64,000 nucleotides of DNA, taken from contig NZ_CP070304.1 in the NCBI RefSeq assembly GCF_016917355.1, positions 806,001 through 870,000 of the forward strand. The letters run 5' to 3'. The notes below the pieces were generated by a model. It saw only the letters and a program-made list of their open reading frames with translations. It had not been told where the DNA came from and searched no databases. How positions within the stretch are numbered: position 1 is the stretch's first letter; every line of letters begins with the position of its first letter. Of this stretch, positions 23,811-52,392 are shown one piece after another. The stretch is from Glaciimonas sp. PAMC28666. GTDB taxonomy: Bacteria; Pseudomonadota; Gammaproteobacteria; Burkholderiales; Burkholderiaceae_D. The position numbers and the translations under genes were made by a program.

Positions 23811-24116
23811 AACCAGATACAAAGTCCTTTATACTTCTTGCACAGTTGATATGCGAATATGCGCGTGTCAACTGGAGGTCCCCTGCAGGAATTAGCAAAA
23901 ATAAAAAATGAGACACTAGTTGGTGCAATTTCAGATGCAAACTAAAAACAAAACGCTAGCAATGCCAGACAAACAGTGTCAATCCCTGCCTCGCTATTGA
24001 TCGCTCCATTCCATCGACTAACTGTCAATCGGATGAATACGTCAATGCGTCGCTAACAATCTACCTGTGTGCGTGTCATTACTACAAATATTAATAGCAA
24101 CCCGGAGAGTTCAAAG
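23811..24116. other. Intergenic region between argH and livK
   Basis: These 306 bp include a 7-bp inverted repeat, CAGTTGA/TCAACTG (23843-23874), shortly after argH, which lacks a T tract. The ribosome-binding site CCGGAGAG for livK is at 24102-24109. No gene is seen. Confidence 0.4.
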
Positions 24117-25274
24117 ATGAAACTGAATACGATGTTGAAAACATTAACCGTGCTGGTGTTCAGCGCGACATTAGCACAATCCGCACTGGCAGCCGAAATC
24201 AAACTCGGCCTTGCAGCGGCGTTGACCGGTCCGGCGGCCAAATACGGCGTGGCCATCAAAAACGGCTTCACGCTGGCGACGGAAGAAGTCAATGCCAAAG
24301 GCGGCGTTAATGGCAACCAGCTATTGTTGGTCATAGAAGACGAGCAAGGTAAAAAAGAAGATGCCATCAACGCCTTCAAAAAACTCATCTTCCAGGACAA
24401 GGCATTGCTGGTTTTCGGCCCTACCCTGTCTAATTCCGCGTTCGCTGCCGATCCGATCGCCAATGCCGCCAAGGTTGTCGCTTTCGGCACCAGTAACACC
24501 GCTGACGGCATCACGGCAATGGGACCGTTCACCTTCCGTAACTCAGTCATGGAAGCCGACGTCCTGCCAGTAACCACACGTGCAGCAGTCAAACATTTCG
24601 GCATCAAGAAGGTTGCCGTTATTTATGGCAATGATGATGCGTTCACAAAGAGCGGTTACGACGTATTCAAAGCCACCCTCGCCGAGCAAAAAATCCCCGT
24701 AACGACGACTGAGTCCTACGCTAAGGGCGACGTTGATTTCAAGGCGCAGCTTACTAAAATCAAAGCATCCAATCCAGACGCTATCGTCTGTTCTTGCCTG
24801 ACTGAAGAAGCAGCGAATATCATTTTGCAAACCCGCACGCTTGGCATGAAACAACCGTTCATCGGCGGAAATGGCTTGAACTCTCCGAAGCTTTTTGAAA
24901 TTGCCAAAGGCGCCGGTGATGGCACCATCATGGGCAGCCCTTGGTCGGCAGAAAACACGACGCCAGCCAATAAGGCGTTCATGACTGCCTATAAAGCCAA
25001 ATTCGGCACGGAGCCAGATCAGTTTGCTGCGCAAGCTTATGACGCGTTGTATATCGTTGCCGCGGCATTGAAAACAGTAAAATTCACCGGCGCTTTGCCA
25101 GCTGATCGGATCGCGCTGCGCGATGCGCTGCCAGCAGTCAAGATCGCAGGAGCAACTGGCAATTTCGCGTTCCGCAAAGCACCGGAATCGGGCGGCAAAG
25201 CGGTTGGCTATGACGCCCACCAGGAAGCAATTGTGAATATTGCTGAAGGTGGAAAATTCGTTCTGATGAAGTAA
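24117..25274 (+). CDS. livK: Branched-chain amino-acid type ABC transporter substrate-binding protein
   Basis: From the ATG at 24117 (after CCGGAGAG) it has 385 residues. It begins with a Sec signal peptide ending ...SALA at ~residue 24 and then the periplasmic binding fold of the Leu/Ile/Val family (EIKLGLAAALTGPAAKYG; VFGPTLSNSAFA). It would deliver a branched-chain amino acid or a related small solute to the LivHM permease encoded next. A tandem repeat and a terminator-like hairpin separate it from livH, which would allow the binding protein to be made in excess. True ligand unknown. Confidence 0.92.
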   Translation: MKLNTMLKTLTVLVFSATLAQSALAAEIKLGLAAALTGPAAKYGVAIKNGFTLATEEVNAKGGVNGNQLLLVIEDEQGKKEDAINAFKKLIFQDKALLVFGPTLSNSAFAADPIANAAKVVAFGTSNTADGITAMGPFTFRNSVMEADVLPVTTRAAVKHFGIKKVAVIYGNDDAFTKSGYDVFKATLAEQKIPVTTTESYAKGDVDFKAQLTKIKASNPDAIVCSCLTEEAANIILQTRTLGMKQPFIGGNGLNSPKLFEIAKGAGDGTIMGSPWSAENTTPANKAFMTAYKAKFGTEPDQFAAQAYDALYIVAAALKTVKFTGALPADRIALRDALPAVKIAGATGNFAFRKAPESGGKAVGYDAHQEAIVNIAEGGKFVLMK

Positions 25275-25287
25275 GAGTCGTAACACG

Positions 25288-25326
25288 CTAGTTAATACAG
25301 CTAGTTAATACAGCTAGTCAATACAG
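25288..25326 (+). repeat. 13-bp tandem repeat, three copies
   Basis: CTAGTTAATACAG occurs at 25288-25300 and 25301-25313, and with one change at 25314-25326. CTAGTTG then begins a degenerate fourth copy. It lies just after the livK stop codon. Confidence 0.9.
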
Positions 25327-25467
25327 CTAGTTGTGAGGGGTTTGAGAAACCGACGCGATATCGATCTGGCTGGCATGATTTTCCTGATCGAGATTTGCGC
25401 GGTTTGCAATTCCCACAGGCACTGGTCATAAAGATTCACAGCAAACCGACTGACGAAATAACGCTAG

Positions 25468-27359: not shown

Positions 27360-28120
27360 TGCTTCAACTCAACAATATCAGCAAAAACTTTGGTGGTCTG
27401 CACGTATTACAAGACGTCAATTTAATTGTCCCACAAGGCGGAATTTTTGGCTTGATTGGCCCGAACGGTGCCGGAAAAACCACCGTCTTCAATCTCATCA
27501 CCGGCTTGCTTCGCGCATCAGGCGGCAGCATTTCTTTTAATGGTGAGGATATCGGCAAAGTGGCGCCGCATAAAATTACTGAACGCGGTATCGCCCGTAC
27601 CTTCCAGAATATTCGCGTATTCAAGGAAATGACGCTGTTGGAAAACGTCGTGGTCGGCATGCACGATCATATGAATTATGGCTTAGCCGGCTTGCTGTTA
27701 AATCTTCCTGGCTATCGCAAAATTGAAGCAAACGCGCGCGAACGCGCACTGGAATTATTATCATGGGTGCGCCTTGATCATAAGGCTCACCTGCTGGCAG
27801 ATAGCTTATCGTACGGCGAACAACGCAAGCTTGAATTTGCCCGCGCCCTCGCCACCAAGCCCAAATTGTTATTGCTGGATGAACCCGTCGCCGGGATGAA
27901 TCCATCGGAAAAAACTGAGCTGATGCGAGAAATCCTTAACATCAAGGAGCGCGGTTTCAGCATCTTCATGATCGAACACGACATGCGCTTTGTGATGGGC
28001 TTATGTGACCGCATAGCCGTCCTCAATTTCGGCCGCATCATCGCGGAAGGCACGCCGGATCAGATCAAGAATAACCAGGAAGTGATTGAAGCTTATCTGG
28101 GCAAGGAAGAAGCAGAATGA
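27359..28120 (+). CDS. livG: ABC transporter ATP-binding protein, LivG type
   Basis: This 253-residue ATPase has Walker A GPNGAGKTT (~35-43), the LivG-typical long helical insert after the Q-loop (VVVGMHDHMNYG...), the signature SYGEQRKLE, Walker B LLLLDEPVAGMNP and the switch His in IEHDM. It energises uptake with LivF. The gene overlaps livM by one base and livF by four (ATGA). Confidence 0.94.
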   Translation: MLQLNNISKNFGGLHVLQDVNLIVPQGGIFGLIGPNGAGKTTVFNLITGLLRASGGSISFNGEDIGKVAPHKITERGIARTFQNIRVFKEMTLLENVVVGMHDHMNYGLAGLLLNLPGYRKIEANARERALELLSWVRLDHKAHLLADSLSYGEQRKLEFARALATKPKLLLLDEPVAGMNPSEKTELMREILNIKERGFSIFMIEHDMRFVMGLCDRIAVLNFGRIIAEGTPDQIKNNQEVIEAYLGKEEAE

Positions 28121-28830
28121 AGCCAATCTTAAGTGTTCGGGACCTGGCGGTTTCGTACGGTCATATTGAAGCGGTAAAAGGGATTAACCTCACCCTTAAT
28201 GAAGGTGAAATCACCGCCCTGGTCGGTGCCAATGGCGCGGGAAAAAGCACTGCCCTGCTAGCGATATCAGGCCTGCTAAAACCGACCAGAGGCAAAGTAT
28301 TGCTGGAAGATCGCGACCTCACTCAGCTGTCTCCTCACAAAATCGTACAGAGCGGCATAGTACAGGTAGCAGAAGGCCGCGCCATCTTAACCACACTCAC
28401 CATCGCAGAAAATTTAGCCCTAGGTGCCTACACCCGCAGCGACAAAGCCCAGGTAGCAAAAGATCTGGAATGGATCTATTCCCTGTTCCCGGTCCTGCAA
28501 CAACGCAAAGAAGGCCTGGCAGGCAACCTCTCCGGCGGTGAACAACAAATGTTAGCCATCGGCCGCGCCTTAATGGCAAAGCCCCGCGTCCTCCTGCTAG
28601 ACGAGCCATCAATGGGATTAGCGCCACTGATGATCCAGGAGATTTTCCGCATAGTCCAGGAAATCAACCGCACCGGCCTTACCATCCTGCTGGTAGAACA
28701 AAACGTCCGCCAAGCCCTACGCATCGCCCAACGCGGCTACGTACTTGAAACCGGAAAGATCGTACTAGCCGACACCGGTACCAATTTGCTAAACAACCCA
28801 AAAGTACTAGAAGCCTACTTAGGCGGCTAG
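28117..28830 (+). CDS. livF: ABC transporter ATP-binding protein, LivF type
   Basis: This 237-residue ATPase has Walker A GANGAGKST (~38-46), signature LSGGEQQMLAIGRALM, Walker B LLLDEPSMGLAPLM and the switch region LLVEQNVRQAL, all typical of LivF. The start overlaps the livG stop (ATGA). It is the last gene of the liv operon. A repeat-rich non-coding stretch follows rather than a clear terminator. Confidence 0.94.
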   Translation: MKPILSVRDLAVSYGHIEAVKGINLTLNEGEITALVGANGAGKSTALLAISGLLKPTRGKVLLEDRDLTQLSPHKIVQSGIVQVAEGRAILTTLTIAENLALGAYTRSDKAQVAKDLEWIYSLFPVLQQRKEGLAGNLSGGEQQMLAIGRALMAKPRVLLLDEPSMGLAPLMIQEIFRIVQEINRTGLTILLVEQNVRQALRIAQRGYVLETGKIVLADTGTNLLNNPKVLEAYLGG

Positions 28831-28927
28831 ACAAAAAACCAGCGGAAAATTAAACGGCAGAAATGCCCTAATAATTTTATTTAAGGCCCGCTCGAACCAC
28901 TCCGCAGTAAAACAAGTGGATTGGGTC

Positions 28928-28992
28928 GCAGTTGCAGTTGCAGTTGCAGTTGCAGTTGCAGTTGCAGTTGCAGTTGCAGTTGCAGTTGCAGT
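28928..28992 (+). repeat. GTTGCA hexanucleotide array (10 perfect copies)
   Basis: Ten uninterrupted GTTGCA copies (28931-28990) are flanked by partial copies GCA and GT. The perfect identity indicates recent slippage or expansion. Confidence 0.97.
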
Positions 28993-29018
28993 AGATTTTT
29001 GACCTGCCCGACATTGAA

Positions 29019-29130
29019 GCTGCCAAGCATTTCAGCCACCAGTCGGGAATTGCTGGAAGACATGTTTGAGCGTAGCAGTTGGTCTTTCAACCGACTGGCG
29101 GCTGAAACGCTTGGGAACCCGAAGGGCAGC
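29019..29130. repeat. Long imperfect inverted repeat (possible RNA hairpin)
   Basis: Positions 29024-29046 and 29091-29113 are complementary over 23 bp with two exceptions. On the minus strand both exceptions become G-U pairs, so a minus-strand RNA forms an unbroken helix. GCTGCC (29019-29024) and GGCAGC (29125-29130) extend the pairing past an 11-base bulge. Confidence 0.75.
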
Positions 29131-29280
29131 ATCACTGCGGTCGCCTTCTTTTTGGTGCCTTTTTCCTGGCGGGGGCGCCGAGCCGAGCAAGAAAAAGACA
29201 CTAGCTGTCGGGCTACCTTCGACAAGCCCCCACGGAGCAGAAAATCCAAAATACAACCACGCCCCAAAGCACACAAAGCA

Positions 29281-29303
29281 GTTGAAGTTGAAGTTGAAGT
29301 GAA
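29281..29303 (+). repeat. GTTGAA hexanucleotide array (3 copies)
   Basis: Three GTTGAA copies plus GTGAA close the element. The unit differs by one base from the GTTGCA unit at the other end and has the same orientation. Confidence 0.9.
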
Positions 29304-29335
29304 CCTTCGACCATCGGATTCAATCACAATAAAAT

Positions 29336-30700
29336 CTAATTCCCGGCCACCGTCATACTCTCAATCAAAATCGACCCAGTCAAACTACTCCCCCGAGTCA
29401 ACGTATCAGCCCCAATAGCCACAATCTGCGCCAACATATCCTTCATATTCCCAGCAATCGTAATCTCCTCAACCGGATACTGAATCACCCCATTCTCCAC
29501 CCAATATCCCGACGCCCCCCGAGAATAATCACCAGTAACATAATTTACCCCGGACCCCATCAACTCAGTCACCAACAATCCGGTATGCAGCTTCTTCAGC
29601 ATCGCCTTAAAGTTATCGCCCGCCACAGTCAACGAAGAAGTCAACGCCAAATTATGCGAACCGCCCGCATTCCCGGTAGTCGTCATGCCCAGCTTACGCG
29701 CAGAATAAGTCGACAAGAAATATCCCTGAACAACGCCATCCTTCACCACCTCACGACGCTGCGTCTTCACACCCTCATCATCGAACGGGGCCGAACTGAC
29801 TGCACCGATAATATGCGGATCTTCAACGATCTGAATATGCGAAGCAAAAACCGATTTACCCAACGTATCCAGCAAAAAAGTCGACTTGCGATACAACGCA
29901 CCACCCGATACGGCCTGCACAAAAGCGCCCAACAAACCCGAAGCCAGCGGCGCCTCAAACAACACTGGACATTTACGGGTATCGAGTTGACGAGCATTCA
30001 AACGTGCCAGGGCACGCTCCGCAGCGTAGCGACCGATCGCTTCCGGCTTAGCTAATTTCTTAGGATCACGCACCGATGAGTACCAGCTGTCGCGTTGCAT
30101 TTTCCCGCCCTTGCCTGCAATCGGCGAGACCGAAAGCGTATGCCGTGAAAACGGATATCCCCCCATAAACCCGCGCGAGTTAGCGCTCACAAAATGCGAT
30201 TGCTGGGCATAAACACCGGCCCCTTCGCTATTCGTAATCCGCTTGTCGACAGCAAACGCCGCAGCTTCGCAGCGCTTCGCCAATTCCACCGCCTCTTCAG
30301 CCGAAATTGACCATGGTGTGCATAATTTCAGGTCACGCGGCTGCATTTCCAGCATGTCTGCGTCGGGCAGGCCAGCGCAATCATCTTCTGCGGTAAAGCG
30401 TGCGATGTTGTACGCCGCATCGACGGTATCTTTTAATGACTGCGCCGAAAAGTCTGAAGTACTCGCATTGCCACGTCGCGTATGACCTTCTTCGCCCAAA
30501 TACACGGTCACACCCATGCCTTTGTCTTTATTTTGCTCGATCGTCTCGATTCCGCCCTTGCGCACACCAACCGAGAGGCCGCTACCTTCGCTGATATCAA
30601 CGGCAGCGTTAGAAGCACCCTTCTCGCGGGCATAGCGCAAAACGTCCTGTGCAAGCTGTTGTAACTGATCCTGAGTATGGAGAAATACGGATTCGCTCAT
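29336..30700 (-). CDS. pmbA: TldE/PmbA metalloprotease-family protein
   Basis: The 454-residue protein is the TldE partner of the TldD/TldE protease, which degrades unfolded peptides and matures ribosomal peptides such as microcin B17. Landmarks are RKGGIETIEQNKDKGMGVTVY near the N-terminus, the long middle domain with VLFEAPLASGLLG and the closing GSGVNYVTGDYSRGASGYWVENG. As usual for TldE, there is no HEXXH zinc motif; TldD supplies the metal site and is not in this window. It is divergent from yjgA, a common arrangement in betaproteobacteria. Confidence 0.95.
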   Translation of the reverse strand: MSESVFLHTQDQLQQLAQDVLRYAREKGASNAAVDISEGSGLSVGVRKGGIETIEQNKDKGMGVTVYLGEEGHTRRGNASTSDFSAQSLKDTVDAAYNIARFTAEDDCAGLPDADMLEMQPRDLKLCTPWSISAEEAVELAKRCEAAAFAVDKRITNSEGAGVYAQQSHFVSANSRGFMGGYPFSRHTLSVSPIAGKGGKMQRDSWYSSVRDPKKLAKPEAIGRYAAERALARLNARQLDTRKCPVLFEAPLASGLLGAFVQAVSGGALYRKSTFLLDTLGKSVFASHIQIVEDPHIIGAVSSAPFDDEGVKTQRREVVKDGVVQGYFLSTYSARKLGMTTTGNAGGSHNLALTSSLTVAGDNFKAMLKKLHTGLLVTELMGSGVNYVTGDYSRGASGYWVENGVIQYPVEEITIAGNMKDMLAQIVAIGADTLTRGSSLTGSILIESMTVAGN

Positions 30701-38130: not shown

Positions 38131-38207
38131 TACCAAAAACGTGCGCGTTAAGCGTTCCGTTTCTGGCGTTAAAAGCAGCTTTTTAAAGTTATTGGCAAAA
38201 AATTTAC

Positions 38208-38311
38208 TTTCGTTACTTACTTTCGTTACTTACTTTCATTACTTACTTTCGTCACTTAGTTTCGTTACTTAGTTTCGCTACTAAGATTCGTTACTTAGTT
38301 CCGTTACTTAA
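38208..38311 (+). repeat. 13-bp tandem array, eight copies, running into purU
   Basis: The unit TTTCGTTACTTAC is repeated eight times in perfect 13-bp phase (38208-38311), with increasing divergence toward purU. The last unit supplies the purU stop codon (38304-38306). Confidence 0.93.
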
Positions 38312-51957: not shown

Positions 51958-52392
51958 TGCTTTAAATAGCACTTTAACTTTACCAGGTTAAATTCGGCCA
52001 GCTTATGTGGGATGGGGCCAGCTGCGGTGCAAGTCGGTTAGTTGTAACGACCGAATTTGCGAGGATATATTTAATATCATATTCTTAAGCCCAAAACATT
52101 GGCTGCGTTATTTTCCAGTGTTTTGGTACATTTCGCCCCAATTTTCCTCATATCTGCGAAAATTCGACATTCACCTTTTTGGTCCAGCAAAGCTGCCCCA
52201 ACTATCCGGAGCAGACGCGCAATTTAAGCTGTTGGCTAAGCTGTTGATTAAGCCGTTGGTTAAGCTGTTGATTAAGCTTCTAGTCAAGCTCATGACCACG
52301 CTATTGTTCACCCTCATTGATTAGCGAACCGTCGACCCAACCTGAAACCGTGTTCGCTACTCCGTCATTCACACCCGTCTCTTGGAGACCGC
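51958..52392. other. Intergenic region between folA and the decarboxylase
   Basis: These 435 bp contain a 12-bp tandem array (52224-52295). A 105-codon frame crosses it, but half of it is the repeat translated as KLLIKLL-type sequence and it has no start signal, so I do not call it. CTTGGAG (52381-52387) is the ribosome-binding site of the next gene. Confidence 0.5.
52224..52295 (+). repeat. 12-bp tandem array, six copies
   Basis: Units TTAAGCTGTTGG/A repeat in 12-bp phase from 52224. The first four units differ by one or two bases; the last two (52272-52295) are decayed. Confidence 0.9.

Follow-up and report, generated by a model that had tools for sequence, protein, structure and literature searches.

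The window considered here is the whole 64,000-nucleotide stretch of Glaciimonas sp. PAMC28666 that was analysed (contig NZ_CP070304.1, positions 806,001 to 870,000). The interval of interest is flanked by an ORF at 28117-28830 on the plus strand and a convergent ORF at 29336-30700 on the minus strand (ORF list). We take these to be livF and pmbA, respectively, names which come from a preliminary description of this DNA and from our own reading of the ORFs, without a family search. Between the two genes the preliminary description had seen a pair of hexamer tracts in the same orientation, a 23-bp inverted repeat and, further right, a second pairing of CTTTTTC with GAAAAAG. All of these were recovered (Table 1): TRF returned both tracts, the inverted repeat emerged as two 24-nt arms that are 92% complementary, and its two mismatches in the window copy are, as had been stated, A.C on the plus strand and hence G.U on the minus strand. 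The interval is a copy of a dispersed, non-coding stem-loop repeat and has decayed slightly; it belongs to a structured family in which a GTTGnn hexamer tract is often the 5' end.

Table 1. Features of the element between livF and pmbA (positions in the window).
Feature	Position	Strand	Basis
5' hexamer tract (GTTGCA)10.8, also written (GCAGTT)10.8	28928-28992	+	TRF: 100% match, score 130
Variable 5' end of the element (the same tract)	28928-28992	+	Co-oriented GTTGnn-type tracts adjoin many other copies
Conserved core, ~240 nt	29000-29239	+	blastn and alignment with copies from five genus genomes
Stem-loop region R1: outer stem, long stem, tip, small P3 hairpin	29018-29133	+	R1 match and pair counts
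Long stem, 5' arm, 24 nt	29023-29046	+	Inverted repeat, 92% complementary; compensatory changes
Long stem, 3' arm, 24 nt	29091-29114	+	Inverted repeat, 92% complementary; compensatory changes
Apical tip, family form TGTTTGAGCGNAGCGAGTT	29063-29080	+	Alignments; other phyla
P3 small hairpin CCC-GAA-GGG	29118-29126	+	Helix 5 of the pair counts; loop counts
Second hairpin CTTTTTC...GAAAAAG, arms 29155-29168 and 29188-29201	29155-29201	+	Inverted-repeat search; alignment
Third hairpin TGTCGGG-CTAC-CTTCGACA	29206-29224	+	Alignment; DNA fold
Conserved 3' end of the core, CCACGGAGCA	29230-29239	+	Alignments
Right tract (GTTGAA)3.5, also written (AGTTGA)3.5	29280-29300	Same orientation as left tract	TRF; unusual for the family

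Read from 5' to 3' on the plus strand, the family begins in many copies with a GTTGnn-type tract of varying unit and length, followed by GACCTACCCCGnCATTG and an outer stem GCTG/CAGC. Next comes the long stem, whose internal loop is asymmetric, and then the tip ACATGTTTGAGCGNAGCGAGTTGGT, a small hairpin of the form CCC-GNA-GGG and TCTGCGGTCGCC; last are the second hairpin TTACTTTnTTTTGGCGAAGCAAAAnAAAGTAAC, the third hairpin GTCGGGCTACCCCCGAC and CCACGGAGCA, behind which many copies carry a nTAACCGTTTnAnTTATCGAC-like tail. This anatomy represents our own readings of the alignments, and variants occur. The tip TGTTTGAGCGNAGCGAGTT is a GC-GNA-GC mini-hairpin framed by GA/GA; among 53 copies its loop is GNA in 31 and GNNA in 6, while 13 have one extra mini-hairpin base pair and 3 are different. 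The window copy is without one G of the family form (GCGTAGC-AGTT). A kink-turn reading of the tip, considered by eye, was dropped because the flanking bases do not pair. According to the fold, TGTCGGGC of the third hairpin may have an alternative partner in GCCCGACA at 29006-29013. The open frames across the interval had been regarded as non-coding, and the family bears this out: the core lengths of 71 copies, which range from 197 to 254 nt, occupy all three frames (20, 25 and 26 copies by length modulo 3), and a stop precedes the core end in 60 of 65 ATG frames.

Copies in Glaciimonas and their surroundings

The preliminary description had raised the possibility of a dispersed repeat family, and further copies were found both in the own genome and in related ones, so the window copy is not unique. 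The own genome (5.23 Mb) contains 12 blastn matches to the region, itself and one antisense palindrome hit included. All five genus genomes carry the family, with 13, 43, 25, 34 and 25 matches to the core; these counts include fragments and a few antisense palindrome hits, and the figures for genomes G001 and G003 are from the best 40 candidates. A covariance model (R1) was built from an alignment (A1) of 53 of the 71 full-length copies, and the window copy, itself one of the 53, scores 110.6 bits with it on the plus strand. Matches to R1 are present in at least 53 of 145 genomes and at least 25 of 44 genera of the taxonomic family (25 candidates scored per genome), and in at least 27 of 300 genomes drawn from the order, two of them of the own family (12 candidates per genome). 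Across 398 genomes of the phylum, the tip pattern gave 58 matches in 17 genomes and the reversed control none; all 17 belong to the own order or class, and the pattern was absent from the genomes labelled only as being of the same phylum. An exact 39-mer of the element 3' end had no match in the collected genome contigs, a 21-mer had none in viral contigs, and phages gave no match, while in the plasmid search the second hairpin alone matched, in Ilyobacter (Fusobacteriota), Caballeronia and Pasteurella. In G001, contig ends coincide with copies or lie near them (L063, L066, L073), so that draft assemblies probably undercount the element. On contig C1 of G004, 16 of the 21 distinct copies lie in the second half.

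The positions of copies differ between sister species. Five G004 copies were tested, and all five are missing from the 12 intergenes of G000, G001, G002 and G003 that were located by the flanks of these copies (in one case the two flanks lie apart in G002); matched flanks are separated by ~165-390 bp in the sister species versus ~640 in G004. R1 had no match at E<=1 at the 12 matching loci or at the pmbA loci of G001-G004, and no core is visible in the matching intergenes. In G001 and G003 livF adjoins pmbA without a core, and in G002 and G004 other sequence stands beside pmbA. No target-site duplication could be read at the matching intergenes, the flanks being too diverged.

Some sites carry tracts or tract-like sequence and no core, among them L361 and the livF-pmbA intergene of G001. 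Between livF and pmbA in G001 there are TTGCA- and then TTGAA-type repeats, in the order of the left and right tracts of the window, and the right-hand GTTGAA tract of the window is perhaps the other half of a tract that stands coreless in G001. In G000, the site corresponding to that of L044 has only a short GTTGAA tract, and in L400 a tract runs straight into an apparent 3' tail of the element. Judging from such sites, core losses as well as gains seem to occur. The tract-only sites could be scars or else pre-insertion targets; of 16 GTTG tracts of at least five units in G001, 13 adjoin a co-oriented core, two run into contig ends and one lacks a core, and scars are therefore favoured. A tract at 1240815 of G000 was set aside: it lies inside a long repetitive, apparently coding stretch and has no copy beside it.

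Tandem repeats are concentrated at the ends of the element. Around 67 Glaciimonas copies, repeats with a period of 4-12 cover ~20% of the sequence 50-150 nt 5' of the tip and 8% of that 200-250 nt 3' of it, compared with 0-3.2% beyond 500 nt, except for a sparse edge bin at 1450 (15.7%). A tract ends within 130 nt 5' of the tip in 27 of the 67 copies, the remaining 40 having no tract that ends near the stem, and one starts 150-260 nt 3' of the tip in 10. The 5' units are mostly GTTG-like; those on the 3' side are A/C-rich in nine of ten cases, for example (ACTGA)15, (TAACC)8 and (CAAC)51. The term "repeat-bounded" in the preliminary description thus holds on the left, where GTTG-type tracts are common in the family, but not on the right, where the GTTGAA tract of the window copy is the one exception among the ten. 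In two other sets of loci the 5' peak is 3.7-6.5%, versus at most 3.1% beyond 500 nt, and a near 5' tract accompanies 12 of 92 and 4 of 49 copies; the 12 include three Glaciimonas or Collimonas loci (L142, L147, L170) and one Bacteroidota locus (L135) with A/T repeats inside the stem, and tracts common to two facing copies were counted twice in some cases. Tip hairpins with tracts just 5' of the stem were also observed in Luteimonas (L188) and elsewhere in the class (L317, L325, L340), with the units TTGATC, GGCTGT, GCTCTTT, GTTGCT and GCTCTT.

Neighbouring copies stand in a preferred inverted orientation, as in BIMEs. Among 14 pairs less than 1 kb apart in the fetched loci, the 5' ends face each other in 12 and the copies are in tandem in two, with no pair of facing 3' ends (our own count over 85 rows, five of them being antisense shadows of others, with fragments below E 1e-5 excluded). 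Genes were called with a home-made scorer, and the 34 of 69 copies without a call on one or both sides were dropped. The other 35 lie 15 times between convergent and 20 times between tandem genes, never between divergent ones, and they correspond to 29 distinct intergenes, 11 of them convergent, when facing pairs are counted once. The tandemly flanked copies are in the same orientation in 11 cases and in the opposite one in 9, two facing pairs adding one to each side. One copy of the 69 overlaps a called gene. No recurrent real gene was found near the tips, the 25 largest neighbour clusters being, by eye, translated repeat or ordinary genes.

Pairing and the folded strand

The pairing of the family is well supported. 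Covariation, which the preliminary description had named as a check, is evident in the 53-copy alignment, for which 43 pairs were named: 95.7% of the cells are paired, 24 pairs and 278 cells have changed on both sides, and 0 of 500 shuffles reach the observed value in any of five pairing measures. Slid versions of the structure are 31-46% paired, a control that leans towards the structure because the latter was drawn from the same alignment. The argument rests on the shuffles and on the 278 cells changed on both sides, with one reservation: copies that are related have changes in common.

The preliminary description had proposed a structured RNA of the minus strand. The structure stands; the strand does not. 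On the plus strand, the 53 copies have 180 G-T cells versus 32 A-C cells, and 51 of these copies retain the G.U at columns 45/79. In 47 of 52 Glaciimonas copies the strand that carries the tip has the greater stability; the ratio is 44:17 at named loci outside the far-phyla list (a few of them Glaciimonas) and 25:5 in far phyla, while one locus set had no strand bias (16:12, p=0.57). The plus strand of the family is the strand selected to fold. The minus-strand proposal had been based on one drifted copy, whose two mismatches read A.C on the plus strand, and these mismatches are also the reason why the minus strand of the window copy folds better (-109.8 kcal/mol, z -4.6) than its plus strand (-97.3 kcal/mol, z -2.2). 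Since the family favours the plus strand while this copy favours the minus strand, it is the window copy that has drifted. Homology is stronger evidence than the fold z scores that the element of the window is real. The folded strand is possibly RNA; single-stranded DNA fits as well.

The tip on other stems in distant phyla

A scan of collected genome contigs for CATGTTTGAGCGNAGCGAGTT gave at least 117 stretches, 80 of which were taken as loci. Among the matches listed are isolates of Clostridium frigoris, Clostridium sp. DSM 17811, Halanaerobium congolense and a nearer relative, Lonepinella koalarum, together with assembled genomes labelled Lachnospiraceae, Bacteroidota and Magasanikbacteria. 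The tip TGTTTGAGCGNAGCGAGTT, or a near form of it, caps long hairpins there too, in Clostridia, Bacteroidota, Halanaerobium and others, and the stems are unrelated; no stem sequence common to the far lineages could be seen by eye. At far-phylum loci of the inner 15-mer, the 15-mer is preceded by TG and followed by TT in 12 of 13. The far-phyla set comprises 31 distinct loci from roughly 15 genomes, with several copies per genome, among the matches listed, and in all 31 the sequences flanking the tip pair with an energy below -25 kcal/mol. The median for own flanks is -46.4, versus -15.9 when flanks are swapped between loci, and 7% of swapped flanks pass -25. In two further sets the medians are -34.1 and -45.9 for swapped and -55.5 and -60.8 for own flanks, and the test is weak there because swapped flanks also pair well. 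The reversed-pattern control returned 34 matches versus 89 for the tip pattern (our own sums); it is not a clean control, since the full tip itself contains the reversed 15-mer with N=A, and the sums are therefore not taken as copy numbers for far phyla.

A near-identical tip on different stems in very distant bacteria suggests a widely shared factor that recognises the tip. A wider proposal, for which we consider the odds somewhat unfavourable, is that the dispersed hairpins of several phyla would combine freely evolving stems with an invariant tip TGTTTGAGCGNAGCGAGTT, that one shared factor would read the tip in single-stranded form, and that microsatellites would be born at the ends in at least the beta and gamma lineages.

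In a replicon of Ilyobacter polytropus the second hairpin is 93.5% identical to the L005 copy over 46 nt and comes after another long hairpin with a different tip; the stretch folds with a z of -6.7. On this plasmid of Fusobacteriota (L401, 1370-1550) the near-identical hairpin was observed at 6-7 places in the replicon.

Proposed mobility and alternative readings

Our best reading, to which we assign a probability of about 0.6, is that the element is a non-autonomous mobile stem-loop repeat which would work in the manner of REPs and BIMEs, while standing outside the REPs themselves by its length and by its absence from the 21 Y1 loci. It builds on what was observed, namely the family, its structure, its strand, its presence and absence between sister species and the tandem repeats that adjoin many copies at their ends. 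One strand would form the long hairpin with its fixed tip, either while single-stranded in replication or transposition or in the form of RNA. What we infer beyond this is a trans-acting factor reading the single-stranded tip, and tracts created through slippage at the hairpin base. The putative factor would bind the tip and copy or move the element, and passage through a DNA hairpin is a route that we rate at somewhat below even. The chances are nearly even that hairpin formation in replication would make the polymerase slip at the hairpin base, building or changing the hexamer tracts and sometimes deleting the core, so that a tract is left alone. No mobilising gene was found among the Y1 loci and the genes near tips.

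In the available parts of PMC3733652, REPs are described as extragenic palindromes of 20-40 bp with a terminal GTAG or CGTC tag; GTAG REPs are thought to be mobile, and G-T pairs are noted. As far as those parts go, the element resembles REPs and BIMEs in being a dispersed extragenic palindrome whose stems vary by family and which forms dimers in a preferred orientation, mostly downstream of genes. It differs in its core of ~240 nt, well outside the length range of REPs across the 71 copies, in its several hairpins and fixed tip of ~18 nt, in the tandem repeats at the ends of many copies, and in that no link to a RAYT was found. Neither tag is constant: in the 30 nt about each end, GTAG/CTAC is present at the 5' end of 28 of the 71 copies and at the 3' end of 6, and CGTC/GACG at those of 52 and 10, respectively, the window copy having CCGAC. 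The TIR elements of TIRYT, as the same parts present them, are comparable in their long inverted repeats, moderately abundant families and frequent dimers, but they flank Y1 genes, some with GGGGWSAS, and no such link was seen for the element at 21 Y1 loci. The stem-loop families of Cozzuto et al. 2008 (PMC2267715) are, in the portions consulted, repeated, often intergenic sequences of 31 to over 2,000 bp; the element, too, is a repeated, mostly intergenic sequence with a common secondary structure. Bor-1 of Bordetella (117 bp, 196 copies) and Pae-1 (a double hairpin) may be comparable, the comparison being by description. The Cozzuto families are listed genome by genome, and these portions mention neither a cross-phylum tip nor flanking tandem repeats, both features of the element.

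A partnership with HUH (Y1) tyrosine transposases of the RAYT or TIRYT type, with the copies as REP-like satellites or terminal repeats moved as single-stranded DNA hairpins, would account for the hairpin, the preferred-orientation dimers and the gene-end location, all of which match the REPs of PMC3733652 as far as consulted, and Y1 matches occur in 20 of 24 copy-bearing genomes searched. Yet none of 21 Y1 loci (65.8 kb, part of the Y1 genes in these genomes) has an R1 match at E<=1 or an exact tip. With up to three substitutions, four tip-like matches appear in three of the 21, versus one in 52 kb of control loci. Four genomes (G057, G433, G438, G450) carry copies and have no Y1 match, the single Y1-like protein found in the own genome is below threshold, has NQIQ as its HUH stretch and looks inactive, and GTAG is not constant around the ends. 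A Y1/RAYT partner was accordingly rejected as a requirement, none of the 21 loci carrying the element, and the reading as a whole is improbable. The 232-aa Y1-transposase-like protein observed at L038 (1132-1830, minus strand), with the HUH stretch NQIQ, is possibly domesticated and inactive; weak Y1 matches were seen in L296-L298, from three other genomes of the genus.

If each copy were instead a small RNA transcribed from the plus strand, with the tip binding a conserved protein or target RNA and dispersal secondary, the compensatory changes, the plus-strand wobble pairs with their conserved G.U and the plus-strand bias in far phyla would follow. The G-T wobble fits single-stranded DNA equally, however. 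Most tip loops are GNA triloops, with GNNA occurring as well, and loops of the GNA type are very stable in DNA. Tandemly flanked copies have no orientation preference, a single promoter-like site in 28800-29400 (0.4 expected) lies behind the core, and Rfam had no match; on balance we hold a small RNA family to be unlikely. In the window all Rfam matches were far below gathering scores, at 18 tip loci two tRNAs alone reached the gathering score, and in E-value mode nine loci gave seven matches, none at the tip. The "skipping-rope" RNA, considered as a lead, was unsupported by the Rfam searches or the literature. In the literature search, judged mostly from listings, the exact tip strings occurred in no paper and no paper was recognised as describing the family.

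Bidirectional transcription terminators or stabilisers of mRNA 3' ends, spread by recombination, would explain why no copy among the 35 lies in a divergent intergene and why the L005 copy folds into a stable hairpin, and the consensus scan gave four overlapping terminator-like placements in the window versus 0.8 expected. All four are in the hexamer tract and none in the core hairpins, though; termination has no need of an invariant tip, and any tolerated insertion also avoids divergent intergenes, which leaves this reading quite improbable. The last alternative makes the microsatellite primary, the hairpin having been inserted into or having arisen beside GTTG tracts. Tract-like sequence without a core at orthologous sites, and the TTGCA and TTGAA blocks of G001 in the order of the window's tracts, are what it would predict. 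Against it are the 13 of 16 G001 tracts adjoining a co-oriented core, with two at contig ends and one coreless, and the tract units, which differ by copy and are replaced by other units at the same place in other lineages; we regard it as very improbable.

Under the preferred reading of a mobile stem-loop repeat, the family is a natural system in which a folded strand, and not protein selection, may create and erase bacterial microsatellites. If one factor reads the tip, catching it would mean catching the mobiliser or binder of a cross-phylum repeat class. Spurious ORFs of the MFERSEF type are common in bacterial annotations, and the element, if so interpreted, would account for some spurious short ORFs.

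Other repeats were observed in the window. About eight degenerate copies of TTACTTTCGTTAC, a unit that resembles one arm of the second hairpin of the element, occupy 38204-38310 and are seemingly intergenic. Directly behind an ORF at 24069-25274 there are 3.5 copies of GCTAGTTAATACA (25287-25332), and an imperfect 24-bp repeat, TTAAGCCGTTGGCTAAGCTGTTGA, extends over 52224-52290.
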